Positions 35,610 to 49,289 of a stretch of DNA of 64,000 nt are shown piece by piece. Under the pieces are notes generated by a model that saw only the letters and a program-made list of their open reading frames with translations, did no database searches and was not told the origin of the DNA. The first letter of the stretch is position 1, and each line of letters opens with the position of its first letter. The DNA is from Aliiroseovarius crassostreae (GTDB lineage Bacteria; Pseudomonadota; Alphaproteobacteria; Rhodobacterales; Rhodobacteraceae), in contig NZ_LKBA01000004.1 of assembly GCF_001307765.1 (NCBI RefSeq), positions 124,001-188,000 of the forward strand, in the 5' to 3' direction. Made by a program: the position numbers and the translations under genes.

Positions 35610-36875
35610 TCAGGCCGAAAGCCGGACCCGGGGGGCGCTTGGTCGGAACTGAAACGGCGCAGGATCGCGACTGCCGGTTGGGCGGCAGTTTTTCAGAAGC
35701 ATCTCTTCGAACGCCGCAAAAATCCGCTGCATATGGGGGGGCTTGTAAGGGAAAGTGGTGTCGCAATCCATGTCATGCACGATCAGCGCGTTATCCGCTT
35801 CGAAGACCACCAGATTGCCCTGCGCATCCTCGGCACAGTCGATGCCGAAATACCCCAGTCCGATCCCGTCGGTGATAGCCCTGAGCGCATGTTTGTGGCG
35901 CGTGGCGAAATCATCGCGGAAGTGATCCATGAACCGGGCTTCTTCACGACGCTTGTCTGCGCAGGCCTCCATTCCCGCATTCAGATACCAGATGTCCCAA
36001 TGTGTGGCGATGGCCATGTGACAGGGGAAGGGCTGACCATCGACAAACACCACCCGGTATTTGCGAAACTGCCCGTCGCATGGGGTGGCGTAGTGAATGT
36101 ATTCTGACAGGAAAAACGCAGGCTCCGGGTGGTTCACGAGGTAGGAGATCAGCGCCTCACGCGAGGGGATATTGGCAAGTCCTTTGCCCGCATGTGACCC
36201 GCAGGGACGGATGACAATCGGATAGCCGCCCAGCGCGGAGAGCATCTGATCTTCGGTTTCGTTCATCAACGCGGTCACCAATTCATCCAGCGTCACACGT
36301 TTGGTCTGTGGAAAGCGAAGCCCGGGCACATAAGAAAACCTTTGCCCAAGCTGATGACGTTCAAGCATGAGCTGAGCGCCGGGCAGGTTCAGAACCGTGC
36401 TGCCAGCCGAAGCAGCCAGCCGTCGCACCTGGCCAAAGATCGGATCTGTCGTGGCGGTGTCTGCCGGGATGGCGCAGAAGGCGACGTCATGGTCGGGCAG
36501 ATCCAGATGCGTGCCGTCAGAGGCATGCGGGTAATAGGTGATGATCTCGAAATCCGACCGCTGCAAAAGGAACTCGACCGGTGTATTGGCCCCCATGTGG
36601 CCCGGTTTGGCAAAGACCAGCACCCGGTGTTTCGCACGCTCGCCCTGATTGGTGACAAAGGCGCGCTGACGCGAGAGGGCTTTGGCCTGCCATTCCAGGC
36701 CCAACGGCTGATTGCCCTGTAACTGTTCGATCACGGACAGGTCCATCAATGCCCCTTCGCAGGGGCCTTCGCTCAGGCATTGGCGGAGCAATCGTGTCTG
36801 AACCGGGGTCAGATCCTGCCCCTGATAGGCCATCTTTGTCAGGTTCGCGAGGCCGATACGTGTTTGCGGTTCCAT
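35610..36875 (-). CDS. ATP-grasp domain protein with helical N-terminus
   Basis: 421 residues. About 1-75 is helical and TPR-like. The middle (about 80-170) resembles the pre-ATP-grasp Rossmann region, and 175-390 is an ATP-grasp fold: YPIVIRPCGSHAGKGLANI is the nucleotide loop, SEYIHYATPCDGQFRKYRVVFVDG and LGYFGIDCAEDAQGNLVVFEADNALIVHDMD carry the Mg-binding Asp/Glu/Asn. It should ligate a carboxylate to an amine or thiol using ATP; substrate unknown. It lies 81 bp after the reductive dehalogenase on the same strand, so it might belong to that transcript. Confidence 0.82.
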   Translation of the reverse strand: MEPQTRIGLANLTKMAYQGQDLTPVQTRLLRQCLSEGPCEGALMDLSVIEQLQGNQPLGLEWQAKALSRQRAFVTNQGERAKHRVLVFAKPGHMGANTPVEFLLQRSDFEIITYYPHASDGTHLDLPDHDVAFCAIPADTATTDPIFGQVRRLAASAGSTVLNLPGAQLMLERHQLGQRFSYVPGLRFPQTKRVTLDELVTALMNETEDQMLSALGGYPIVIRPCGSHAGKGLANIPSREALISYLVNHPEPAFFLSEYIHYATPCDGQFRKYRVVFVDGQPFPCHMAIATHWDIWYLNAGMEACADKRREEARFMDHFRDDFATRHKHALRAITDGIGLGYFGIDCAEDAQGNLVVFEADNALIVHDMDCDTTFPYKPPHMQRIFAAFEEMLLKNCRPTGSRDPAPFQFRPSAPRVRLSA

Positions 36876-36956: not shown

Positions 36957-39900
36957 CTACAGGTCCAGCTCAATCACCCCGCCCGCGTCACGGGCGCGGC
37001 TTTGACACAGGATCATCGCCCCTTCGCGCTGGGCGTTGGACAGCACGAAATCCCGATGCTCCACATCCCCTGCGATGACCCCGCATTTGCACACGCCACA
37101 GATCCCGTCCGAACATTTCACATCCACATGCACGCCATTGGCATTCAGAATGTCTGCGGCGGTCTGATCTTCGGGCACGGTAAAGGCGCGCCCATCCCTG
37201 AGTTTCAGCGTGAACGGGTGGTTTTCGTAATCCGGCAGGTCCGGCACCGAGAAATATTCCAGATGCCGGGCCTCTTGCGGGAAACCCTGCGCCTCGGCGG
37301 CCCGCATCACCGCATCCATATAGGCCTCCGATCCGCAGCAATAGACATGCCAGCCGGGCTGATAGCCGGACAGGGTGGTGTTGAAATCCGCCCGTGTGCC
37401 CTGATCGGAAAAATGCAGATGCACCCGATCCGCCCAGGGCGCACTGGTCAGGTCATTCACAAACCCGGCATCTGCGGCGCGCGAGCAGGAGTAATGCAGC
37501 GAAAAATCCCGCCCCAGCGCGTGCAGCCGGTGGGCAAAGGCAATCATCGGTGTGATGCCGATCCCGCCCCCCATCAGCAGGGTTCTGGTCGCGGTCTCAT
37601 CCAATTCGAAATGGTTGATCGGTTTCGAGATGAACAGTTTGCGTCCCGGTACAAAGATGCGGTGCAGAAGGGCCGAGCCACCACGCCCGGTGTCTTCGCG
37701 CAATACGCCGATCTGATAGCTGGTGTGGTCGGCGGGATCGCCGGACAGGGAATACTGACGCAGAAATTCCGGGCTGACGAGCACGTCCAGATGGCCGCCT
37801 GCGCTCCACCCCGGCAAAGGCGCGCCATCGGGGCGGATGAATTCGTATTTCGTGACCCTGTCGGTCATTTTCTCGACTTTTGAAACCTGCACTTCGATCA
37901 CCGGCGCGTCCCCATCGATGGTAAAGCGATGGATCATCGACAGATCGCCCGCCGCTTTGCGGGTGCGGTATTCATCGGGCGAGATCAGGGCTTCATAAGC
38001 GGCAATCCCTGCCTCGCGATCCATCGGAAACGGATAGGGATAAGGCGGCGGCGACAGGTTAGCGGGGTAGGCGGCAAGGGTCTGATCTTCAGGCCTGAGG
38101 TCAATTTCGCGGTTGAGCCCCCGCCGGTTGACTGGGTTTTCGGTGGGGTGATACCCCCCGTCCTCGGCCAGTTCCAGATCCCACCACCATGTCTTGACCG
38201 GGTTGATCTCACCATTCCCGACCGCGTCGTCCAGTTTGGCCAAGGCCGGGGCGGCTGCGGGGAAACGGGATGCGGCCCAGCGAAACGGGGCCTGTGCAAA
38301 CAGTCCTTCAAGGTTCCACGGGCAGGTTTTCATGCAACGCCCGCACATCGCCCCGCCGGGGTTGGTCACGCGGTATGTGGTGCATTTCTGCGCGTCGGAC
38401 TTCCAGACCTCATAACCATTGAACATCTTTTTCGACCCGGCGGAGATCGCACCGGAGGGGCATTCGCGGGCACATTTGTTGCAGGCTTCACAAAAGGCCT
38501 GCAGGCCAAAATCAATCGGTTTGTCATGTCCCATTGGCATATCGGTTGTGACCACGCCGGATTTCAGGCGCGGGCCGAGATAGGGGTTCAGGACCACGTC
38601 GCCGATCCGCGCCACCTCACCCAGCCCGGCCAGAAGTAGGAGCGGTGGTTGCAGCACGGTTCCGTCCATCACCGTATGGGCCTTGGCCGAATAGCCAAGG
38701 TTGCGGATCTGCTGGGCGATGACCCCACCGATGAGGGCGAAGCGCAGATAGGCGCACATCGACTGGCTGACGGCAATCCAGTCATCCCCGGAGGCGCCTT
38801 CCATCGTCTCGAACCCCTGATCGACAATCATGGAAATGGCATTGTCATGGGGGGGATGGATCTCGGCCCCGGTTGCGTCATGGGAATACCAGCACCAGTC
38901 CGGGCAGCGGGAGGTGCCCGCAGCGTCGATGCCAAGGAAATAGCTCGCTGCCCGCAGATTGTCGGCGTTGCGGCTGGCATCCTTGGGGCGGGACCCGTCT
39001 GCTGTGGCGCCATCCTGCAGGGGCACAAACGCCCCCAGCAACCGGCGTTGGGCAAAACTTGGCCCGGATTTGCGCACGTAGTGACCGCCCTTTGAGGCCT
39101 CCTGCAGCGGTTTTCCCATATCGCCGAACTGACTGCGGGCGAACATGTCGGACCGTTTCGGCACCCGCGCCACGTTGGGCTCATCAATATAGGTTGTCGG
39201 GTTGTCCACGCGCTTGAGGCGTTCAAACGGGTGCGGTCCCATATGGTAGTCTCGGTGCGCATAGGGATCACGGGTCAGGGCCGATTTCGCATGCCCCTTG
39301 CCCGGCCCGGTGCCGCCCAGCCACCATGCGGGGCCGGAGGTGGCGTGCCACGGCTGCTCGGCCATGGGCGCAAGGGGGGCGTCATGCGCCAGGTCCATAT
39401 CCGTGGTCACCACGGCGACCCCAAAGCGGTTGCCCAGCCATGGCGCGACCAACTCACCGTTTTCCGCGACCGCAAGCCCCGAGGTCACGGCCAGCTGGTT
39501 CAGATCCACATCGGTTGACATCGGGCTGTGCGCCATCGCGTCAAAGCCCAGAAGGCGGATGTAATTGGCGATCACCACGGCGGTTTCCGTGCTGCGCAAA
39601 CAGGCGCGGTGGTCCTGGGCATCAAGGATCCAGTCCGACCCGCGCTCAGCAGGGTGCGGATCGCGCATGTGTTCAACCAGAAACACGATGGCGTTGGGGT
39701 GTGACGCCCTGCGGGGCGCGCGGTCCATCGACGCCTTGAGATCGGCCATGATCACGTCGATCCCTGCGGCCAGCGTGCGGATCTCGCGGGTTTTCAGGGC
39801 GTCGGAAAGGCGGGGGATGTCGGGGTTCTGGCGGGGGGGCGACAGGCGCGCACCGTCCGGCACCGGACCAATGCCGACCATTGAGGTGTCGAGGTAATAG

Positions 39901-40169
39901 CCAAAGGCTTTCAAATGGTTGGCGCGCTCCTGAAGATCCTCGGGGATGCGCCCGCGCACGGGGGTCACATCCCCATCCCGGATCGCATCCATCATCGCCT
40001 GAAATTCGCCCATGGCATTGACGATGCTTTCGGGATGTTCCGGTCGGTGAAAGGACAAGGGGGCCATGGAGGGCACGGCGGAAAGATCGGCCTGATCGGT
40101 CCGTTTCAGCCGTTCCAACGGGTAAGGTCCAAAGTGAACGGGGCGCTTTTTGTCCGAGAAAATTTTCAT
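36957..40169 (-). CDS. Self-sufficient cobalamin-dependent reductive dehalogenase
   Basis: 1070 residues, BhbA/NpRdhA type: removes halide from organohalides, using B12 and two [4Fe-4S] clusters, in the cytoplasm. No Tat signal. Domains: 1-270 degenerate copy of the corrinoid module; 305-555 corrinoid-binding dehalogenase; 555-620 clusters (CEACNKCARECP, Cys 560/563/566/570; Cys 596/609/612/616); 750-960 FAD/NAD reductase (RQYSL at 804, MGGGIGITPM at 866); 980-1070 plant-type [2Fe-2S] (Cys 1019/1024/1027/1055). Tyr 474, Lys 536 and Arg 600 have the same spacing (62, 64) as the catalytic Tyr426-Lys488-Arg552 I recall for NpRdhA. The fused reductase lets NAD(P)H supply electrons. Coupled to the upstream sulfatase by TGATG. 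Confidence 0.94.
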   Translation of the reverse strand: MKIFSDKKRPVHFGPYPLERLKRTDQADLSAVPSMAPLSFHRPEHPESIVNAMGEFQAMMDAIRDGDVTPVRGRIPEDLQERANHLKAFGYYLDTSMVGIGPVPDGARLSPPRQNPDIPRLSDALKTREIRTLAAGIDVIMADLKASMDRAPRRASHPNAIVFLVEHMRDPHPAERGSDWILDAQDHRACLRSTETAVVIANYIRLLGFDAMAHSPMSTDVDLNQLAVTSGLAVAENGELVAPWLGNRFGVAVVTTDMDLAHDAPLAPMAEQPWHATSGPAWWLGGTGPGKGHAKSALTRDPYAHRDYHMGPHPFERLKRVDNPTTYIDEPNVARVPKRSDMFARSQFGDMGKPLQEASKGGHYVRKSGPSFAQRRLLGAFVPLQDGATADGSRPKDASRNADNLRAASYFLGIDAAGTSRCPDWCWYSHDATGAEIHPPHDNAISMIVDQGFETMEGASGDDWIAVSQSMCAYLRFALIGGVIAQQIRNLGYSAKAHTVMDGTVLQPPLLLLAGLGEVARIGDVVLNPYLGPRLKSGVVTTDMPMGHDKPIDFGLQAFCEACNKCARECPSGAISAGSKKMFNGYEVWKSDAQKCTTYRVTNPGGAMCGRCMKTCPWNLEGLFAQAPFRWAASRFPAAAPALAKLDDAVGNGEINPVKTWWWDLELAEDGGYHPTENPVNRRGLNREIDLRPEDQTLAAYPANLSPPPYPYPFPMDREAGIAAYEALISPDEYRTRKAAGDLSMIHRFTIDGDAPVIEVQVSKVEKMTDRVTKYEFIRPDGAPLPGWSAGGHLDVLVSPEFLRQYSLSGDPADHTSYQIGVLREDTGRGGSALLHRIFVPGRKLFISKPINHFELDETATRTLLMGGGIGITPMIAFAHRLHALGRDFSLHYSCSRAADAGFVNDLTSAPWADRVHLHFSDQGTRADFNTTLSGYQPGWHVYCCGSEAYMDAVMRAAEAQGFPQEARHLEYFSVPDLPDYENHPFTLKLRDGRAFTVPEDQTAADILNANGVHVDVKCSDGICGVCKCGVIAGDVEHRDFVLSNAQREGAMILCQSRARDAGGVIELDL

Positions 40170-41857
40170 CAGCTGTCCTTGTCTTCCGGGGCAACAGGCG
40201 TGGCCTTCCCGCGATAGGCGGTGGTGTAGCGGTCGGGCAGGTCTTCGTCGCCATAGACACCAATCAGCACGCCAACCTGTTCGGATCCGCCTTTGCGACG
40301 CGCAAGGATCTGGTTGTCACTGACCGTGGTGCGTTGCGACATGCGTCTGGCCCAGTGATGCAGGTGGTCATACATTTGGGTGATGATCTCGAAATGGTCT
40401 TTGCTTGCGCCCAGATCGGTCAGTTCGTCGGGGTCGGTTTTCAGATCAAACAACATCGGGCGGAACCCGCCTTCGTCGCCCCCTTCCGCATGGATCAGTT
40501 TCCACCGGTCGGTGACCACCATGAACAGACGGCAATCGCGGGGGGGAAGCCCAAGCCGGTCGGCCATGGGGGATGTGGAATAATCATATTCGCTGATCGC
40601 AAACTCGCGCCACGCCACGTCGTCACCGTGCAGGAGCGGCACAAGCGAGCGTCCTTCGAGGATATGATCGGCCACATCCCCACCGGCCATGTCCACAAAT
40701 GTGGGGGCAAGGTCGATCTGCTCAACCAGCCTGTCCGATACCGTGCCGCGCATGGCATCCGCCTGTGGGCGGGGATCGGCGATGATCAGCGGCACCCGGA
40801 CGGCGGGATCGTGGAAGAAATCCTTTTCCCCCATCCAGTGATCGCCCATGTAATCGCCATGATCCGAGGTGAGCACAATCACCGTGTTCCCGGCCTGCCC
40901 GCTCTCATCAAGGTAATCGAGGATCCGTCCCAGATGGTCGTCACATTGCTTGATCAGACCCATATAGGCGGGGATCACCACGTCGCGCACCTCGTCACGG
41001 GAAAAGGCGGCAGAGAGCTGGCCCTGCAGATAGGCGTCAAATACCGGATGCGCCTGTTGCCGTTCCTTTTCCGCACGCACCACGGGCTGGATATCTTCGA
41101 TCCCATAGAGGTCGTGATAGGGGGGCGGCACGATATAGGGCCAGTGCGGTTTGATATAGGATAGGTGCGCGCACCACGGTCCGTCGCCCTTTCGGGTCTG
41201 CATGAATTCAATCGCCCGGTCGGTAAGCCACGGGGTTTCACTGTCTTCTTCGCGGATATTGGCGGGCTTGCCCGCGTGCATCATCAGGAAACCGGAGGCA
41301 ATATCCCCGGCGTCATCAATTCCGGCATTCGCGTGATCATGCCAGGGATTGTGATCGGTATACCCTTTGTCGCGCAGATATGCGTTATAGGGGGAGCGTT
41401 TTGGGTCATAGAACCCATCTGGCCCCTCGGCCCAAAGCCCGTCATCGCGGATCCAGACGTCAAACCCACATTCACCGATACGGGTGCCAATGACCGAATC
41501 GGATGCCAGCCCCAGCCGCGCCATGCCCTCGGCATCCGCCTTCATATGGGTCTTGCCAATCAGCCAGCACCCCATGCCGGCGCCGCGCAGGTGATCGCCC
41601 ATGGTCAGTTCACCGACCTTGAGCGGAAAGTTGTTGAAGGCCGCCCCATGGGACGAAACATAGCGCCCGGTATAGGTGCTCATCCGGCTGGAGCCGCAGA
41701 CGGGGGACTGGCAATAGGCGCGGTCAAACCGCACCCCGCGCGCCGCCACCCGATCAAAGTTTGGCGTTTCCAGCGTCTTGTGACCGGCACAGCCCAGGTA
41801 ATCAAAGCGCAGCTGGTCATACATGATGAACAGAATATTCGGGGCGGCGGGGGCCAT
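40169..41857 (-). CDS. Sulfatase (arylsulfatase-like), cytoplasmic
   Basis: 562 residues of the alkaline phosphatase/type I sulfatase fold. Metal-binding start NILFIMYDQLRFDYLG; modification site C54-G-S-S-R58 in SPVCGSSRMSTYTGRY, where Cys would become formylglycine; later GKTHMKADAEG and SDHGDYMGDHWMGEKDFFHD ligands. The third motif residue is Ser, where Pro or Ala is usual. No signal peptide, so cytoplasmic. AAGGAG lies 8 bp before ATG. First gene of the operon with the dehalogenase; likely removes sulfate from an aryl (perhaps halo-aryl) sulfate (inference). Confidence 0.9.
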   Translation of the reverse strand: MAPAAPNILFIMYDQLRFDYLGCAGHKTLETPNFDRVAARGVRFDRAYCQSPVCGSSRMSTYTGRYVSSHGAAFNNFPLKVGELTMGDHLRGAGMGCWLIGKTHMKADAEGMARLGLASDSVIGTRIGECGFDVWIRDDGLWAEGPDGFYDPKRSPYNAYLRDKGYTDHNPWHDHANAGIDDAGDIASGFLMMHAGKPANIREEDSETPWLTDRAIEFMQTRKGDGPWCAHLSYIKPHWPYIVPPPYHDLYGIEDIQPVVRAEKERQQAHPVFDAYLQGQLSAAFSRDEVRDVVIPAYMGLIKQCDDHLGRILDYLDESGQAGNTVIVLTSDHGDYMGDHWMGEKDFFHDPAVRVPLIIADPRPQADAMRGTVSDRLVEQIDLAPTFVDMAGGDVADHILEGRSLVPLLHGDDVAWREFAISEYDYSTSPMADRLGLPPRDCRLFMVVTDRWKLIHAEGGDEGGFRPMLFDLKTDPDELTDLGASKDHFEIITQMYDHLHHWARRMSQRTTVSDNQILARRKGGSEQVGVLIGVYGDEDLPDRYTTAYRGKATPVAPEDKDS

Positions 41858-42193
41858 CGCGGCACTCCTTGTTCATTGCGGATGCGACGATTTGAGCATG
41901 TGAAAAAGCCTCTGGAAAGCCAAATTGGATCCAATCGGGAAAAACATGATTTGGTTTTTGTCCGATCGGGTCGTTCCCGGCGCCCTTGATGCCGTGTTTT
42001 TCATTGCGAGCAGATGAGCTGCGGCCTATACCCGGTTCCTGACGAAGCCCATTCGGGCCAGAGAGGTTGGCTGTCGGACATCGACCCAGATAGGGGATGG
42101 AACGCAGCATCGTCGAAGCAGCGTAACGGGCGTCGTCCCTTTGCGCGTATCGGTGTCTCTTCCCTGTGCCCCAGATTTGCGAAAGGACACATG
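41858..42193. other. 336-bp divergent control region
   Basis: Separates the sulfatase-dehalogenase operon from the cobalamin operon. It contains the palindrome at 41924 on the sulfatase side and a GC-rich part at 42000-42150. I looked on both strands for cobalamin riboswitch boxes (GCCACTG and the full GYCAGGARACC box) and did not find a convincing set; CGTCAGGAACCGG on the minus strand is only a partial match. Confidence 0.5.
41924..41935 (-). promoter_or_regulatory. Perfect palindrome ATTGGATCCAAT upstream of the sulfatase
   Basis: 12-bp perfect palindrome 67 bp upstream of the sulfatase start. Its TTGG-N2-CCAA form resembles operators of GntR/FCD-type regulators. Candidate operator for substrate-controlled expression; no regulator gene is adjacent. 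Confidence 0.4.
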
Positions 42194-42449: not shown

Positions 42450-43760
42450 ATGAAAACCCAGCTGGATACGCAAGGTAAGAAAATCGGCGTGATGATCTGC
42501 GGTCACGGCTCTCGCAGCCAGGCCGCGGTGGATGAATTCAAGGTGCTGGCAGAGAAGCTGCCCGCGATGCTGCCCGATGACTGGATGGTTGATTACGGCT
42601 ATCTGGAATTTGCCAATCCGGTGATCCGGGTGGGTTTGGACAATCTGCGTGAGGCGGGGTGTGACCGCATTCTGGCCGTGCCGGGGATGCTCTTTGCGGC
42701 GATGCATTCGAAAAACGACATCCCCACCGTGCTCAATACCTATGCCACCAAACATGGTATCGACGTCAGCTATGGGCGGGAATTGGGCGTGGACCCCAAG
42801 ATGGTTGCCGCCGCCGGTGCGCGCATCCGTGACGCGGTGGAGGCTGCCAATGCCGAACATGGCGAGGTGCCGCTTGAAGAAACCTGCCTGGTGGTGATCG
42901 GACGCGGCGCGTCTGACCCGGATGCCAATGCCAACGTGTCGAAAATCGCGCGTCTGCTGCAAGAAGGTATGGGTTTTGGCTGGCTTGAAGTGGGTTATTC
43001 CGGTGTGACCTTCCCGCTGGTGGAACCGTGCCTGACCCACACCGCCAAGCTGGGTTACAAGCGTGTCATCGTCTTCCCGTATTTCCTGTTCACGGGCATC
43101 CTGATCGACCGGATCTATGGCTTCACCGATCAGGTGGCCGCACGTCATCCTGACATCCAGTTCGTGAAAGCCGGTTATCTGAACGACCACGAGAAGGTGC
43201 TGGAAACCTTTGCCGAGCGGATCACCGAACAGGTCGGCGCCATGCCGCCGCCCAATTGCGGCACCTGCGGCTATCGTGATCAGATCCTGGCACTGGATGA
43301 CCCGAAAATTGCGGCGATCTCGGCTGCGGATCGTGCCAAGCACCCGGCCTTTTCCGACACCCCCCCACCCACCTGCGTGATGTGTAAATACCGGGTTGAG
43401 GTGCTGGGTTTTGAAAGTGAACTGGGTGCGGTGCAGGAAAGCCATCACCACCATGTGGAAGGGCAGGGGGCCAACGCGCCCGGCTCAACGGTCGAGACCT
43501 GTTCGCTCTGCGATCATTTCTGCACCGGGGCGTGCCGTCTGGATATGGATCACCACCATCACCACCACCATGATCATGGGCACAGCCATGACCATGATCA
43601 CTCTCACGGCCACGATCATTCACACGATCACGCCCATGACCACACCCATGATCACGGGCATCACCACCACCATCATCACGATCACGACCATGATCACCAC
43701 CACCCGGAATACCCCCATGCAAAACACCCGCATGGTCCGGAATCGGCGCGGGTCAAATAA
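42450..43760 (+). CDS. cbiX: CbiX-type sirohydrochlorin cobaltochelatase with His-rich tail
   Basis: 436 residues, long (CbiX-L) form. Two chelatase halves: MICGHGSRSQAAVDEF at the start and VVIGRGASDPDANANVSKIARL in the second half, with LEVGYSGVTFPLVEP. Cys motifs follow (CGTCGY, CVMCKY, CSLCDHFCTGAC), as in CbiX proteins with an Fe-S cluster. Residues about 363-430 are a His/Asp tail with more than 30 His, probably a cobalt store. CbiX inserts cobalt into sirohydrochlorin in the early-insertion pathway; the same genome has the late chelatase CobN. Confidence 0.93.
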   Translation: MKTQLDTQGKKIGVMICGHGSRSQAAVDEFKVLAEKLPAMLPDDWMVDYGYLEFANPVIRVGLDNLREAGCDRILAVPGMLFAAMHSKNDIPTVLNTYATKHGIDVSYGRELGVDPKMVAAAGARIRDAVEAANAEHGEVPLEETCLVVIGRGASDPDANANVSKIARLLQEGMGFGWLEVGYSGVTFPLVEPCLTHTAKLGYKRVIVFPYFLFTGILIDRIYGFTDQVAARHPDIQFVKAGYLNDHEKVLETFAERITEQVGAMPPPNCGTCGYRDQILALDDPKIAAISAADRAKHPAFSDTPPPTCVMCKYRVEVLGFESELGAVQESHHHHVEGQGANAPGSTVETCSLCDHFCTGACRLDMDHHHHHHHDHGHSHDHDHSHGHDHSHDHAHDHTHDHGHHHHHHHDHDHDHHHPEYPHAKHPHGPESARVK

Positions 43761-43762
43761 AC

Positions 43763-44410
43763 ATGCGGCCTCCTTTGCAGTATGAACGTGATCCGATGGC
43801 GATCTATGCCGAGAGCTTTGCGACACTCCGCCGTGAAGCCCGGTTGGAGCGGTTCCCCGGTGGCATGGCCGCGCTGGCCACCCGCGTGATCCACGCCTGC
43901 GGCATGGTCGAAGTGGCGGATCGTCTGGCTTTTTCACAAAACGCCTATGACGCGGGCCATGAAGCCCTGAAATCCGGCGCGCCGATCTTTTGTGACTGCG
44001 AAATGGTGGGCGCGGGGATTATTCGCCGCTATCTGCCCGCCGAGAATGAGGTGATTGTCACCCTGAACGATCCGCGCACCCCGCCGCTTGCCAAAGAAAT
44101 TGGCAACACGCGGTCGGCGGCTGCGGTTGAGTTATGGGCCGACAAGCTGGAAGGCGCCGTGGTGGCCGTGGGCAACGCGCCCACAGCACTTTTCCACCTG
44201 TTGGAGCTGATCGACGCGGGCGGGCCGAAACCCGCCGTGATCCTCGGCTTCCCGGTGGGGTTTGTCGGCGCTGCCGAAAGCAAAGCCGAGCTCGCCGCCA
44301 ACCCGCGCGGCTGCGAATTTGTCGCCCTGCGCGGGCGCCGTGGCGGATCGGCCATCGCTTCGGCGGCCGTGAACGCTCTGGCTGCGGGCCTGCCGGAGGA
44401 AAAGGCATGA
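43763..44410 (+). CDS. cobH: Precorrin-8X methylmutase
   Basis: 215 residues. CobH moves the C-11 methyl group to C-12, giving hydrogenobyrinic acid. Seen: RVIHACGMVEVADRLAFS with the catalytic His, GAPIFCDCEMVGAGI, VGNAPTALFHLLELI, and VGFPVGFVGAAESK-type motif (here LGFPVGFVGAAESKAEL). It starts 2 bp after the cbiX stop. Its stop overlaps the CPCC gene start. Confidence 0.96.
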   Translation: MRPPLQYERDPMAIYAESFATLRREARLERFPGGMAALATRVIHACGMVEVADRLAFSQNAYDAGHEALKSGAPIFCDCEMVGAGIIRRYLPAENEVIVTLNDPRTPPLAKEIGNTRSAAAVELWADKLEGAVVAVGNAPTALFHLLELIDAGGPKPAVILGFPVGFVGAAESKAELAANPRGCEFVALRGRRGGSAIASAAVNALAAGLPEEKA

Positions 44411-44817
44411 CCGAGATTAGCGCGTGGTTCACAAACTATGTCCGCTTTCTGGACGTACAGGACCACGCGGGCGCCAAAAAAATTGGCGATTATTTCCTTT
44501 GCCCATGCTGCCAACTTCCTACCTTGGAAGAACGCGCGACCTATGAAATATGTCAGGTATGTTGGTGGGAAGACGACGGTCAGGATGAAGCCACGGCAGA
44601 TCAGGTCACGGGTGGACCTAATGGCAGACATTCATTAACGCGAGCCAGAGAAAACTTCGGCCTTCACATGCATATGTACGATCCGGAAGCTGCAATTGAT
44701 GTGGTTCATAAGCCTTCGAAAAGAAGGTTGGAAATGCTCCAGTATCTTGAAGACATTCGTTCAGAGCGAGCACAGTTTTCATTAGAACGTTTTCGGGAGT
44801 TAGTGGAGGCGCTATGA
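44407..44817 (+). CDS. CPCC family cysteine-rich protein, inserted in the cob operon
   Basis: 136 residues. Core: YFLCPCCQLPTLEE (Cys 32/34/35), EICQVCWWEDDGQDE (Cys 49/52) and GGPNGRHSLTRARENF, as in the CPCC family, which often appears beside toxin genes as a possible immunity protein. It has no known role in B12 synthesis. The DNA is clearly more AT-rich than the neighbouring cob genes. It overlaps cobH and cobL by ATGA at both ends, so it keeps the operon translationally coupled. Probably acquired by transfer. Confidence 0.88.
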   Translation: MTEISAWFTNYVRFLDVQDHAGAKKIGDYFLCPCCQLPTLEERATYEICQVCWWEDDGQDEATADQVTGGPNGRHSLTRARENFGLHMHMYDPEAAIDVVHKPSKRRLEMLQYLEDIRSERAQFSLERFRELVEAL

Positions 44818-46013
44818 CCCAATCTTGGTTGCATATCATCGGCATCGGCGAAGACGGGCTGGATGGTCTGACTCCGGCCACCCGCGCGGTGATCGAAGCT
44901 GCCGATGTGATCGTCGGGGGCAAACGCCACCACGAGATGCTGGACACCAAAGCCGAGCGCCTCGCATGGCCCTCTCCTTTTGACGCCCTGATCGGCGAGC
45001 TGGACGCACGGCGTGGGCAGACCGTGGCCGTGCTTGCCTCTGGGGATCCGCTCTGGTTTTCAGTAGGAGCCAAGATCGGGCGTCACCTTGATCCGGCTGA
45101 GATCGTTTATCACCCGCAGGTCGGGGCCTTCCAGCTGGCGGCGGCGCGGATGGGCTGGTCGATGGCGGATCTCGAAACGCTCACCGTGCATGGTCGCCCG
45201 GTTGAGCAGATGATTGCCTTCATTCAGCCCGATGCGCGCCTGTTGATCCTGACCACCGGGGCGGAAACACCCGAACAGATCGCCAGGTTCCTGACCGAGC
45301 GTGGCTTTGGCAAATCGCGCATGACCGTGCTCGCACATATGGGTGGCGAGAAAGAAGCGCGGTTTGATGGGTTGGCCGAAAGCTGGGACCATGACGTGCC
45401 CGCCTTCAACACGCTGGCGGTGGACTGTATCGCCGCCCCGGATGCGGCGCTGCTGCCCCGCGTGCCGGGTCTGGCGGATGAGCTGTTTCAATCCGACGGC
45501 ACCATGACCAAGCAAGAGGTGCGCGCGGTTACGATTGCAAAACTCATGCCGATGCGTGGCGCTTTGCTGTGGGATATTGGCACCGGTTGCGGTTCGGTTG
45601 CGGTCGAATGGATGCGCGGTGCGCGCTATGCCCGTGCCATCGGGATCGAACCCAAACCCGAACGTCGTGCCATGGCCGCTGCCAACGCGCTGGCGCTGGG
45701 TGTTCCGCGTCTGGAGCTTGTCGACGGTATGGTCCCCGCCGCGCTGGAGGGCCTCGACGCGCCCGACGCTGTGTTCATCGGCGGTGGTCTGACCGAAGAA
45801 ACGTTCGATGCTGCCTGGGCGGCGCTGCGCCCGCTGGGGCGTCTGGTTGCCAATGCGGTCACCATCGAAAGTGAGATGTGCCTGACCGCGCTGCACAAGA
45901 AACACGGTGGCCAACTGGTGAAACTCTCGGTGGAACGTGCCGAAGCCCTCGGGCCGCTGTCCGGCTGGAAACCGCTGCGCCCGGTCACACAATGGAGCCT
46001 GATCAAAAGATGA
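44814..46013 (+). CDS. cobL: Precorrin-6Y C5,15-methyltransferase (decarboxylating)
   Basis: 399-residue fusion of CbiE (about 1-200; LHIIGIGEDGLDGLTPATRAVIEAADVIVGGKRH, LASGDPLWFSVGAKI) and CbiT (about 215-399; LLWDIGTGCGSVAVEWMRGA as SAM motif I, then FIGGGLTEETFDAAWAAL). It methylates C5 and C15 and decarboxylates the acetate at C12. ATGA overlaps on both sides. Confidence 0.96.
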   Translation: MTQSWLHIIGIGEDGLDGLTPATRAVIEAADVIVGGKRHHEMLDTKAERLAWPSPFDALIGELDARRGQTVAVLASGDPLWFSVGAKIGRHLDPAEIVYHPQVGAFQLAAARMGWSMADLETLTVHGRPVEQMIAFIQPDARLLILTTGAETPEQIARFLTERGFGKSRMTVLAHMGGEKEARFDGLAESWDHDVPAFNTLAVDCIAAPDAALLPRVPGLADELFQSDGTMTKQEVRAVTIAKLMPMRGALLWDIGTGCGSVAVEWMRGARYARAIGIEPKPERRAMAAANALALGVPRLELVDGMVPAALEGLDAPDAVFIGGGLTEETFDAAWAALRPLGRLVANAVTIESEMCLTALHKKHGGQLVKLSVERAEALGPLSGWKPLRPVTQWSLIKR

Positions 46014-46711
46014 ACGGAACCCTTTACGGGATCGGCCTCGGCCCGGGCGACCCCGAGCTGATGACGCTGAAGGCCGCACGGCTGATTGCGGCGGCCAAGG
46101 TGGTGGCCTATCCGGCTTTGGAATGTGGCAACAGCTTTGCGCGTTCGATCGCCGCGGATCTGATCGCCGAGGGCACAGATGAGATCCGTATCCCGGTGCC
46201 GATGACGGTTGAGCGCGCCCCGGCGCAGGCCGCCTATGACGCGGGTGCGGCACAGATCGCTGAGCGTCTGGCGGCGGGCGACGATGTGGTGGTGCTGTGT
46301 GAGGGTGACCCGTTTTTCTACGGCTCGTTCATGTATCTCTTTGCCCGTCTGTCGGATCGCTTCGACTGCGAGATCGTGCCCGGCGTGACCTCGATCACCA
46401 CCGTGGCCGCCCGGGCGCAGCGCCCGCTGGTGGCGCGCAACGAACGCCTGACCGTGCTGCCCGGCCCGCTGGACGAAGCTGAACTTCGGTCGCGGATTGA
46501 AGGCGCAGAGTCGGTGGCGATCATGAAGGTTGGCCGCCATCTTGCAAAAATTCGTGCGGTGATTGCCGATCTCGGCCTCACCGACAAAGCCACTTACGTG
46601 GAACGCGCCAGTCTGCCTGAAGAAGTGGTGCTGCCCCTGTCCGAGGCCCCCGAAAAGGCGCCCTATTTCTCGATGATCCTGCTTGCGAAAGGAACCGATC
46701 CATGGCTGTAA
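46010..46711 (+). CDS. cobI: Precorrin-2 C20-methyltransferase
   Basis: 233 residues, tetrapyrrole methylase fold: LYGIGLGPGDPELMTLKAARLI at the start, CEGDPFFYGSFMYLF and PGVTSITTVAARA in the middle. SAM-dependent step from precorrin-2 to precorrin-3A. ATG overlaps the cobL stop; the 3' end overlaps the next gene by 10 bp. Confidence 0.95.
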   Translation: MNGTLYGIGLGPGDPELMTLKAARLIAAAKVVAYPALECGNSFARSIAADLIAEGTDEIRIPVPMTVERAPAQAAYDAGAAQIAERLAAGDDVVVLCEGDPFFYGSFMYLFARLSDRFDCEIVPGVTSITTVAARAQRPLVARNERLTVLPGPLDEAELRSRIEGAESVAIMKVGRHLAKIRAVIADLGLTDKATYVERASLPEEVVLPLSEAPEKAPYFSMILLAKGTDPWL

Positions 46712-48501
46712 CGCCTGTTGTAATTTGCCTGAATGCCTCTGGAGAGCCTCTGGCCCATAAGGTTGCCGCCCTGTTGGGGGCTCAGGTCCATGGGCGTGAA
46801 GGTCGTGTGGAAAAAGCTGATGCGTTTTTCCCAAATGCGCTGGATCATGTGCGGATGCTGTTTGCGGCCGGCACGCCGGTTGTGGGTGTCTGTGCCGCCG
46901 GTATCCTGATCCGCGCGGTTGCCCCCATTCTGGCCAATAAGCTGGCGGAACCGCCCGTCGTGGCCGTGGCCGATGACGGATCCTCCGTGTTGCCGCTTTT
47001 GGGCGGGCATCGTGGCGCCAACCGTCTGGCCAGCCAGATTGCCGCTGAAATCGGCGCAACCGCCGCCGTGACCACCGCAGGCGACGTGTCAATGGGCGTG
47101 GCGCTGGACGAGCCGCCGGTTGGCTATCGTCTGGCCAATCAGAAAGACGCCAAAGAAGCCATGGCAGAGCTCTTGTCCGGCGCTGGCGTGTCCATCGTGG
47201 GTGAGAATATCTTCGACATCGAAGACGCAGGTGGCTCGGTCGAGCTGGTTGTGTCAGAAGCGCCGGTTGAAACCGGCCCGACCCGTCTGGCCTATCACCC
47301 GCAACGTTTCGCATTGGGCGTGGGCTGTGCGCGCAACGCAGATCCAGAAGAGCTGTGGCAGAACGTGTCCGAGCAACTGGCCGCCGCAAATATTGCCCCC
47401 GAAGCGATTGCCTGTGTGACCTCGCTGGACCTGAAAGCAGACGAACTGGCGATGAACCAACTGGCCCGCCGTCTGGGCGTGCCGTTCCGCGTGTTCACGG
47501 CAGAAGAACTGGAGGCCGAAACCGCGCGTCTGGCCAACCCCTCAGACGTGGTGTTTGAGGAAGTCGGCTGTCATGGCGTGTCGGAAGGCGCGGCGCTGGC
47601 TGCGGCTGGTCCGGATGCCGAACTGGTTGTTCCCAAGGTCAAAACCGCCAACACCACCTGCGCCATCGCCCGTGCGCCCGAACCGATTACCGAGATGCGC
47701 GGCCGTTCCCGTGGCAAGCTGTCCATCGTCTCAATCGGGCCGGGTCAGCACACATGGCGCACACCGGAAGCGAGCCACCTGCTGCAAGAAGCCGAGGAGC
47801 TGGTGGGCTATGGCCTCTATATCGATCTGATCGGCCCGCTGGCCGCGGGCAAAACCCGGTCCGACTTCCCGCTGGGCGGCGAAGAAGACCGCTGCCGTTA
47901 CGCGCTGGAACAAGCGGGCAAGGGCAAGAACGTGGCGCTGGTCTGCTCGGGCGATGCGGGCATCTACGCCATGGGCGCGCTGGTCTATGAACTTCTGGAC
48001 CGCACTGCCGAAGAAAAGGGCGTGACCGATGCCGCGCGTCGGGTCGAAGTGGTGTCCACCCCCGGCGTGTCCGCGCTGCAGGGGGCAGCCGCCCGTGCAG
48101 GCGCCCCGCTGGGCCATGACTTCTGCGCCATTTCGCTGTCGGATCTGCTGACCCACCGCGAGGATATCGTGAAGCGTCTGCATGCCGCCGCCGAGGGCGA
48201 CTTCGTGATCGCCTTCTACAACCCCGTCTCGATGAAGCGCCGCACCCTGCTGGCCGAAGCCCGCGACATCCTGTTGAAGCACCGCCCGGCGGACACGCCC
48301 GTCATGCTGGCGTCCAACCTCGGTCGCCCGACAGAGAACATCCGCTATCGTCGTCTGGACGAGTTGCAGGTGGACGAGGTCGATATGCTGACCGTGGTGC
48401 TGGTGGGATCCTCGAACTCGCGCCTTGCACAACTGGGCGAAGGCCCGCGTATGTTTACCCCGCGCGGCTATGCCCGCCGCATTGATGGAGACCTGTCATG
48501 A
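46702..48501 (+). CDS. cobJ: CbiG-CobJ fusion (precorrin-3B C17-methyltransferase)
   Basis: 599 residues. About 1-330 is CbiG-like: VVGVCAAGILIRAVAPIL, PVVAVADDGSSVLPLLGGHRGANRLA, then the CobE/CbiG-C part (FALGVGCARNADPEEL to GVSEGAALAAAG). About 345-590 is the CobJ/CbiH tetrapyrrole methylase (LSIVSIGPGQHTWRTPEA, VCSGDAGIYAMGALVYE, STPGVSALQGAAARAGAPLGHDFCAISLSDLLT, FYNPVSMKRR). CobJ methylates C17 with ring contraction. CbiG opens the delta-lactone in the anaerobic pathway, so its fusion here is notable. Confidence 0.93.
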   Translation: MAVTPVVICLNASGEPLAHKVAALLGAQVHGREGRVEKADAFFPNALDHVRMLFAAGTPVVGVCAAGILIRAVAPILANKLAEPPVVAVADDGSSVLPLLGGHRGANRLASQIAAEIGATAAVTTAGDVSMGVALDEPPVGYRLANQKDAKEAMAELLSGAGVSIVGENIFDIEDAGGSVELVVSEAPVETGPTRLAYHPQRFALGVGCARNADPEELWQNVSEQLAAANIAPEAIACVTSLDLKADELAMNQLARRLGVPFRVFTAEELEAETARLANPSDVVFEEVGCHGVSEGAALAAAGPDAELVVPKVKTANTTCAIARAPEPITEMRGRSRGKLSIVSIGPGQHTWRTPEASHLLQEAEELVGYGLYIDLIGPLAAGKTRSDFPLGGEEDRCRYALEQAGKGKNVALVCSGDAGIYAMGALVYELLDRTAEEKGVTDAARRVEVVSTPGVSALQGAAARAGAPLGHDFCAISLSDLLTHREDIVKRLHAAAEGDFVIAFYNPVSMKRRTLLAEARDILLKHRPADTPVMLASNLGRPTENIRYRRLDELQVDEVDMLTVVLVGSSNSRLAQLGEGPRMFTPRGYARRIDGDLS

Positions 48502-49289
48502 CCGTCTATTTCATTGGGGCAGGCCCCGGCGACCCCGAGCTTCTGACCCTGAAAGCGCAGCGCATCATTGGCGAATGCCCGGTGTGTCTGTATGCGGGAT
48601 CTTTGGTCCCGCCGCAGGTTGTGGCTTGCGCACCCGAAGGGGCAAAGGTCATGGACACCGCGCCCATGACGCTGGACGACACCCACGCTGAAATCAAGGC
48701 CGCCCACGCGCGCGGTGAAGATGTGGCCCGTGTGCATTCCGGTGACCCTTCGCTTTATGGGGCGATTGCCGAACAGATCCGCCGCCTGAAAGCAGACGGG
48801 ATCGACTACAAGGTCATCCCGGGTGTGCCCGCCTACGCAGCCGCCGCGGCGGCACTGGGGCAGGAACTCACCATCCCCGAGATTGCCCAGTCGATTGTGC
48901 TCACGCGCATGTCGATGCAGTCGACCTCGATGCCCGAAGGGGAAACGCTGGAGAATTTTGCCAAGACCGGGGCCACGCTCGCCATTCACCTCGCCGTGCG
49001 CAATATGCGTGAGATTGAGCGCGTGCTGACCCCTTATTATGGGGCGGAGTGTCCGGTGGTGGTGGCCTATCGCGTGGGCTGGCCAGACGAGATGCTGATC
49101 CGTGGCACCATTGCCGATATCCGCAAGAAAGTGCGGGCTGAAAAGATCACCCGCACCGCGCTGATCCTCGTGGGCCCCGCCCTTAACTCCGCGCGCGATT
49201 TCAAGGATAGCGCGCTTTATGATCCCTCCATCCCACATGTGCTGCGCCCTGTGGTGGGTGTGGATCTGGTGGAAGATAACAACACCTGA
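48498..49289 (+). CDS. cobM: Precorrin-4 C11-methyltransferase
   Basis: 263 residues: VYFIGAGPGDPELLTLKAQRII, HSGDPSLYGAIAEQIRRL, PGVPAYAAAAAALGQELTIPEIAQSIVLTR, and YGAECPVVVAYRVGWPDE. SAM-dependent methylation of precorrin-4 at C11. ATGA overlap with cobJ; last gene of the operon, followed by a terminator. cobF, cobK, cobB and cobG/cobZ are not in the window. Confidence 0.96.
   Translation: MTVYFIGAGPGDPELLTLKAQRIIGECPVCLYAGSLVPPQVVACAPEGAKVMDTAPMTLDDTHAEIKAAHARGEDVARVHSGDPSLYGAIAEQIRRLKADGIDYKVIPGVPAYAAAAAALGQELTIPEIAQSIVLTRMSMQSTSMPEGETLENFAKTGATLAIHLAVRNMREIERVLTPYYGAECPVVVAYRVGWPDEMLIRGTIADIRKKVRAEKITRTALILVGPALNSARDFKDSALYDPSIPHVLRPVVGVDLVEDNNT

Follow-up and report, generated by a model that had tools for sequence, protein, structure and literature searches.

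Overlapping arylsulfatase and reductive dehalogenase genes in Aliiroseovarius suggest a route for the breakdown of brominated aryl sulfates

The 64,000-nucleotide stretch of Aliiroseovarius crassostreae DNA analysed here (the window; contig NZ_LKBA01000004.1, positions 124,001 to 188,000) carries two adjacent genes on its minus strand. The first encodes an arylsulfatase of the alkaline-phosphatase superfamily, SpAS2 subfamily (40169..41857, read 41857 to 40169; 562 amino acids), and the second a reductive dehalogenase of the reductase-fused BhbA/JtRdhA type (RdhA, gene rdhA; 36957..40169, read 40169 to 36957; 1070 amino acids). Both open reading frames were confirmed, as was the junction that an earlier sequence-only reading had described, namely a TGATG stop/start overlap (40167..40171, minus strand) in which the two genes share 1 nt; an AAGGA lies before the overlap, inside the sulfatase gene. 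From this layout we infer that the two genes form one co-transcribed operon. We assign a probability of roughly 0.62 to the interpretation developed below, in which this operon serves to break down halogenated aryl sulfates, most likely brominated ones, in the cytoplasm.

The upstream protein matches the Pfam Sulfatase family (PF00884, E=1e-42), and its alignment with the Silicibacter pomeroyi arylsulfatase SpAS2 (PDB 4UPL) gives 339 identical residues of 543 aligned (62%). The predicted formylglycine is Cys54 in a CGSSR motif, as in the SpAS2-type nucleophile, and D14, Q15, D332, H333 and K345 are present at the metal site, by the residue roles described for EfAS/SpAS2 (PMC12421950; this and the other papers cited are drawn on in excerpt). 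The window sulfatase is predicted to cleave sulfate off aromatic compounds. One could suppose instead that it belongs to the PMH branch, acts chiefly on phosphonate monoesters or phosphodiesters and has no role in desulfation, given that the enzyme family is promiscuous (PMC12421950) and that the best NCBIfam match is HdlasePehA, a phosphoric/sulfuric ester hydrolase model whose cut-off is far from reached (282 of 900 bits). We consider this very improbable in view of the 62% identity to SpAS2, whose preferred substrate is p-nitrophenyl sulfate (values of 2.1x10^5 for p-nitrophenyl sulfate, 4.0x10^2 for a phosphonate ester and 5.6 for a phosphate ester; PMC12421950), and of PDB scores of 787 bits for 4UPL versus 187 for 2W8S and 163 for 4UPK, the latter two being chains named phosphonate monoester hydrolase. 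The same identity makes less likely a sulfatase active only on unrelated sulfates, the outcome that the sequence-only reading had listed as counting against its proposal.

The downstream protein passes the TIGR02486 (RDH) model above cut-off (199 bits) and matches PDB entries 4RAS and 6ZXU, with homology to NpRdhA spanning residues 1-103 and 155-738. Fused to it is a phthalate-dioxygenase-type reductase (2PIA, E=2e-54, residues 758-1067), marked by the motifs RQYS at 804 and GGGIGITPM at 867 and by 2Fe-2S cysteines at 1019-1027 and 1055. Eight cysteines from C560 to C616 align with the [4Fe-4S] stretch of 4RAS, the ninth cysteine of which is S572 here; cofactors are assigned by homology. All six published active-site residues, in NpRdhA numbering F291, S422, M423, Y426, K488 and R552 (PMC10463259), are kept as F343, S470, M471, Y474, K536 and R600. 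The last three were mapped by script and the first three by hand from the alignment, with the letters verified. Identity to BhbA of Comamonas sp. 7D-2 reaches 49% over the full length. On these sequence criteria the window RdhA is classed as a full-length BhbA/JtRdhA-type debrominase, and it is predicted to be a vitamin-B12 enzyme that strips bromine from an exposed phenol. JtRdhA debrominates and de-iodinates ortho-halogenated phenols at the expense of NADPH, and it turned over none of the chlorinated compounds tested (PMC10463259); Ros_A3X954 of Roseobacter sp. MED193 is reported to debrominate 2,6-dibromophenol.

The earlier claim that neither enzyme carries an export signal was confirmed. 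Reading of the sequences, with no signal-peptide program applied, revealed no export signal on the sulfatase and neither a Tat signal nor a membrane anchor on RdhA, and catalytic homology begins at residue 4 of the former (to 4UPL) and at residue 1 of the latter (to 4RAS), so that a signal peptide would have no space on either protein.

Comparison across the genus shows that the pairing is conserved and tightly spaced. The rdhA gene occurs in 20 of 21 Aliiroseovarius genomes, and in eight of them an intact sulfatase lies directly upstream: the window genome (G000), KMU-50 (G398), A. lamellibrachiae (G395), A. zhejiangensis (G412), S1339 (G405), G407, G373 and G406. The distance from sulfatase stop to rdhA start is -1 to +2 nt in all eight (gene lengths confirm four), yet the proteins have diverged to 71-85% identity with those of the window; because the junction spacing was kept despite this divergence, the coupling exceeds chance. 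The sulfatase itself evolves under purifying selection, with nonsynonymous divergence (dN) of 0.08-0.14 and synonymous divergence (dS) of 1.0-1.4 in three comparisons, a dN/dS of about 0.1 that resembles that of rdhA. Among the other rdhA genomes the upstream sulfatase is damaged in two, a relic in two, not visible in seven and not assessable in one (G409, which has only an rdhA fragment). Conservation in relatives, the lack of which the sequence-only reading had named as a refutation, therefore extends to eight genus members with an intact coupled pair and four more with a damaged or relic one, and related sulfatases stand beside or near rdhA in other genera.

The damaged and relic copies differ in kind. 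An internal stretch of the sulfatase has been lost in G403; in G400 both genes are interrupted, and as the breaks fall inside some 5 kb of a single contig (C168), an assembly error is possible. The relic of G408 is a 37-nt match to the sulfatase 5' end (0/300 shuffles) with a weak 3' end (8/300), and that of G411 a 14-nt exact match to the 5' end (0/300) with a 3' end that does not stand out (79/300). Of the seven solo species, five gave a negative 5'-end test and two a weak score (L148, 3/300; L151, 4/300). The 3'-end test, applied to four of the seven, gave a weak signal in L147 (1/300) and none that stood out in L148, L151 and L152; we claim no relic for any of the seven. At the thresholds used, G399 is without both genes and G394 has rdhA only.

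The paired sulfatases originated once and have decayed repeatedly within the genus. They make up 9 of the 26 rows of a sulfatase tree built without the broken G403 copy and form one clade with support of 100/98. On the RdhA tree (33 rows, with labels that predate discovery of the relics in G408 and G411) the pair label needs three changes, at least two of them by well-supported branches, which fits one gain followed by losses. The same kinase, MerA-like and VTT genes follow rdhA in all five sufficiently long genus loci, which comprise four with the pair and one with rdhA alone; the site is therefore orthologous. At E<=1e-60 a second sulfatase copy is found in none of the eight intact-pair genomes, and a copy elsewhere in the genome in nine of ten without an intact pair (Fisher p=4e-4; G400 and G409 left out), although seven of these ten belong to one RdhA-tree lineage, so that independent events are fewer than the counts suggest. 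The elsewhere copies fall outside the paired clade.

We then turned to the whole family, sampled as 394 genomes, one per genus except for two Aliiroseovarius, with thresholds of E<=1e-100 for rdhA and E<=1e-120 for the sulfatase. The dehalogenase gene is present in 152 and the sulfatase in 184 of these genomes; 114 have both, 38 rdhA alone, 70 the sulfatase alone and 172 neither, an odds ratio of 7.4 (Fisher p=2e-19). Flanking regions of varying length were available from 128 of the 152 rdhA genomes. Gene calling on 99 loci missed rdhA in four, and locus L041, which yielded no genes, was read from open reading frame lists. A sulfatase lies within 5 kb of rdhA in at least five genera (G000, G064, G379, G251, G137), as against about 0.3 expected at random (p=1e-5), the 5-kb limit having been chosen after these places were known; the sulfatase of G176 lies at 5.2 kb. 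The sulfatases of G064, G379, G251, G137 and G176 fall outside the paired clade, and their placement suggests that nearness to rdhA arose separately in these other genera. In G251 an SsuABC/TauABC-like transporter lies between the two genes. A conserved family-wide rdhA context was considered and rejected, as neighbours are mostly unrelated from genus to genus. Roseobacter-type rdhA genes also appear in L275 and L283, contigs of metagenome-assembled genomes (MAGs) binned as Granulosicoccaceae or Flavobacteriales, through transfer or mis-binning.

These patterns could also arise if a general arylsulfatase or sulfur scavenger had landed once behind the rdhA promoter in Aliiroseovarius and, co-expressed, acted on other compounds. 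The single origin of the paired clade, the repeated loss of the sulfatase with rdhA kept, the usual location of the two genes apart from each other in family genomes and the presence of the promoter element described below before rdhA alone in sister species would all fit such an insertion. It accounts less well for the separate cases of nearness in other genera, once within a full aromatic pathway, for the family odds ratio, for the single sulfatase copy per genome in the genus, and for purifying selection together with tight spacing. We regard a bystander of this kind as unlikely.

The operons of two other genera are more extensive than that of the window. The G176 genes (L042) run in the order arylsulfatase, metallo-beta-lactamase alkylsulfatase, fused tripartite ATP-independent periplasmic (TRAP) permease, TAXI binding protein, short-chain dehydrogenase/reductase (SDR) and rdhA, with genes that overlap or are separated by less than 15 nt and an IclR-type gene beyond rdhA on the other strand. 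The SDR of G176 passes the NCBIfam coniferyl-alcohol dehydrogenase cut-off (245.8 of 242 bits), and that of G379 falls short (227.9). The cluster alkylsulfatase matches PSdsA and SdsA1 and keeps the HxHxDH motif.

The cluster of G379, a Paracoccaceae MAG, runs for 12.6 kb on a single strand (L041:4161-16736; JAQWNW010000054.1, the same contig as L282). It encodes LigA, LigB, PmdC (identified by way of an L279 homologue at 74% identity), arylsulfatase, alkylsulfatase, SDR and RdhA, together with 4-oxalomesaconate hydratase (5CGZ), LigK, 4-oxalomesaconate tautomerase and 2-pyrone-4,6-dicarboxylate hydrolase (4D8L); among NCBIfam models the 4D8L homologue scores best with 4-sulfomuconolactone hydrolase, yet at 207 of 500 bits it stays far short of the cut-off. 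We read this set as a complete protocatechuate 4,5-cleavage route, into the middle of which genes for desulfation, alcohol oxidation and debromination are set. No aldehyde dehydrogenase was seen in the cluster. Related arrangements occur elsewhere. In L279, from another MAG, a PcaQ-like regulator (below the model cut-off), ligA, ligB and pmdC precede rdhA, with no sulfatase in the 5 kb read. On Nitratireductor plasmid pOM-1, rdhA is surrounded by genes for an aldehyde dehydrogenase, a Gfo/Idh/MocA protein, a class III extradiol dioxygenase, PobA, a PIG-L protein and a LigK-type aldolase, as well as a 136-residue protein annotated as protocatechuate 3,4-dioxygenase that is LigA-sized by reading of its sequence; a sulfatase 63% identical to that of the window lies about 350 kb from rdhA on the plasmid. 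Beside the plasmid-borne rdhA genes of Ruegeria TM1040, Jannaschia, Yoonia and Aminobacter no ring-cleavage or sulfatase annotation was found.

For the window operon, we propose that the SpAS2-type arylsulfatase would hydrolyse a sulfate ester on a phenolic oxygen to give an ortho-bromophenol. RdhA would then pass electrons from NAD(P)H through FMN and the [2Fe-2S] cluster to two [4Fe-4S] clusters and cobalamin, with removal of bromide, and the phenol left after debromination would proceed to ring cleavage from the stage of 4-hydroxybenzoate or protocatechuate. Because a sulfate on the phenolic oxygen masks the hydroxyl next to the halogen in JtRdhA-type substrates, desulfation should come first. 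Of the scheme offered by the sequence-only reading, desulfation followed by dehalogenation of a compound such as a bromophenol sulfate, the order is chemically sensible, ortho-halogenated phenols being JtRdhA substrates, and we still only infer that one molecule, and that one a bromophenol sulfate, passes through both steps.

A specific natural compound may be suggested by the larger clusters. Lanosol can be described as protocatechuyl alcohol with two bromines (2,3-dibromo-4,5-dihydroxybenzyl alcohol). The red alga Vertebrata lanosa is rich in sulfated bromophenols and has among its major metabolites lanosol-4,7-disulfate, which is sulfated once at an aryl and once at a benzylic oxygen (PMC9322897). 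The G379 gene set would fit the needs of this disulfate, an aldehyde dehydrogenase aside. In a full version, lanosol-4,7-disulfate would be imported by a TAXI-TRAP transporter, its aryl sulfate removed by the SpAS2-type and its benzylic sulfate by the SdsA-type enzyme; the coniferyl-alcohol-dehydrogenase-like SDR would oxidise the alcohol, RdhA would strip bromine, and the resulting protocatechuate would reach central metabolism by way of LigAB, PmdC, LigI, oxalomesaconate tautomerase and hydratase, and LigK. The C2 bromine of lanosol is not ortho to a hydroxyl, which leaves its removal a weaker point of this scheme. We tentatively suggest, at somewhat less than even odds, that the two-gene unit is the core of such a complete marine pathway for lanosol-type sulfated bromophenols, of which Aliiroseovarius keeps desulfation and debromination. 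The window operon has the core only, and its substrate may be simpler. The same order of steps could instead serve iodinated phenol sulfates of the iodotyrosine or thyronine type, or man-made halophenol sulfates, as JtRdhA de-iodinates iodophenols well and debrominates tetrabromobisphenol A (TBBPA; PMC10463259). The gene content of the G379 cluster, however, speaks for an aromatic alcohol and a product of the protocatechuate type, a better fit to bromobenzyl alcohols, and we think these other substrates improbable.

Several observations weigh against a dedicated route for brominated aryl sulfates. The sulfatase was deleted and rdhA kept in at least three species (G403, G408, G411), so the sulfatase has been dispensable over evolution. 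Elsewhere in the family rdhA usually stands without an adjacent sulfatase of this kind: a sulfatase match occurs in 18 of 211 scanned loci, a count that includes one sulfatase region away from rdhA and repeat records of the same genome. The sulfatase family is absent from 38 of the 152 rdhA genomes and present in 70 genomes that lack rdhA, and the co-occurrence test takes no account of ancestry, habitat or genome size. Beside the window operon, the annotated stretch, in which not every open reading frame was scanned, showed neither a recognisable ring-cleavage gene nor a transporter, and the genome was not searched for protocatechuate cleavage. Finally, no match to the classical formylglycine-generating enzyme (PF03781) was found in the window genome, radical-SAM maturases lying outside the search. 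Matches to PF03781 are limited to one of 21 genus genomes (G406, 32 bits), compared with 4 of 14 control genomes; Cys-type sulfatases are thus accompanied by no such classical enzyme in 20 of 21 genus genomes.

The region upstream of the operon contains a conserved operator-like element. A 12-bp palindrome, ATTGGATCCAAT, lies at 41924..41935 (minus strand), 66 nt before the sulfatase start, and has no other exact copy in the window. Allowing up to two mismatches gives 2 sites where shuffles give 3.4, and weight is therefore placed on the exact copy alone. Of the 20 genus genomes that bear rdhA, 14 have the exact sequence ATTGRATCCAAT at the operon 5' end, preceding the sulfatase where that gene is present and rdhA otherwise, and all 15 genus promoters compared have it with at most one mismatch; a reversed control pattern occurs in 1 of 21 genomes. 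The window genome has four palindromic sites in 3.72 Mb, as against about 0.08 expected from base composition. The three further exact copies of ATTGGATCCAAT (C7:15470, C24:214064 and C25:28327) perhaps mark a small regulon. A CATGCT hexamer at 41895..41900 (minus strand), 23 nt after the palindrome, is a possible -10 region and recurs 23-25 nt past the palindrome in 13 of 15 genus promoters compared. A sigma-70 consensus scan placed no promoter where the operon begins, and its single hit in the region is below the shuffle mean of 2.3; a -10 role for the hexamer is therefore a guess.

The ATTGGATCCAAT 12-mer is identical to VanO, the operator of VanR (PMC7970624). Regulation by VanR, that is by vanillate, was nevertheless set aside, because no FCD regulator or VanA is linked to the sites: none of the 16 FCD-type genes of the window genome lies within 40 kb of any of the four palindromes, and VanA_C has no match in that genome and matches in 8 of 21 genus genomes, none of them at palindrome sites. 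A different conserved near-palindrome, resembling GAYTATTCATGAATGGAT, is located 71-74 nt before rdhA in 21 loci (L213-L266 range), mostly from Ruegeria, and suggests another regulator there. In other genera (L118, L124, L127, L131, L137, L105) a MarR-family gene, assigned by Pfam in L118, L137 and L105 and by similarity cluster in L124, L127 and L131, is positioned 10-46 nt upstream of rdhA on the same strand.

Flanking genes of the window were also inspected. An open reading frame at 35610-36875 (minus strand; 421 residues), 81 nt after rdhA and ATP-grasp-like by reading of its sequence alone, was rejected as a third pathway gene; it has no Pfam or NCBIfam match and is present in one of 21 genus genomes, that of the window. 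Divergent from the B12-dependent rdhA operon lies a cobalamin biosynthesis cluster (42450-49289, plus strand) with cbiX, precorrin-8X methylmutase and tetrapyrrole methylase genes assigned by Pfam and later genes by sequence reading. Of the genus loci compared, KMU-50 (L209) also has part of this cluster and the other five do not. We found no support for a cobalamin riboswitch in the interval separating the cluster from the operon, where Rfam gave no match even at E up to 1.

To our knowledge, the natural substrates of reductive dehalogenases of the self-sufficient type have not been established. The claim that no unit pairing a sulfatase with a reductive dehalogenase had been described stands, in that the literature matches listed, judged on their titles and the opening of their abstracts, include none; no search was directed at lanosol degradation by bacteria. 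Relatives of Desulfatiglans carry both gene kinds, which are discussed separately (PMC6129605, in excerpt), and sulfatases serve only as a comparison in the part of PMC10838667 drawn on. The parts of the operon are of known kinds; our searches gave no earlier description of their combination or of the predicted pathway. In the excerpts used, the papers on JtRdhA and Ros_A3X954 frame such dehalogenases as clean-up tools. A conserved desulfation partner, together with one cluster that runs from two sulfatases by way of debromination to ring cleavage, points to sulfated algal bromophenols as their natural food. If true, this would tie marine bromine cycling to that of sulfur and account for how bacteria could use a red-algal chemical store, and two soluble enzymes would make the natural-substrate question directly testable.

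The window proteins can be set beside several characterised systems. SpAS2 has the CGSSR nucleophile motif and metal site in common with the window sulfatase, in addition to the identity given above; it was characterised with model substrates, and we know of no natural substrate or dehalogenase partner assigned to it. JtRdhA of Jhaorihella thermophila is, like the window RdhA, fused and self-sufficient, and the published active-site residues are common to both. JtRdhA and Ros_A3X954, the latter from a Roseobacter strain, are catabolic marine debrominases described as single enzymes, and the word sulfatase is absent from the main text of either paper. SdsA1-type alkylsulfatases (PSdsA, SdsA1) have a member adjoining the arylsulfatase in the G176 and G379 operons and absent from the window operon; it aligns to PSdsA residues 91-501 of 633, and so is without the N-terminal 90 and C-terminal approximately 130 residues. 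BhbA, the 3,5-dibromo-4-hydroxybenzoate reductive dehalogenase of Comamonas sp. 7D-2, has the same full-length RdhA-reductase fusion as the window protein. Its gene lies on plasmid pBHB in an aromatic catabolic cluster, preceded by ligA-ligB, that serves degradation of the herbicide bromoxynil (PMC10463259). Unlike the window, pBHB has no sulfatase annotated in the 17 kb around bhbA, and a transporter binding protein precedes the dehalogenase gene instead.

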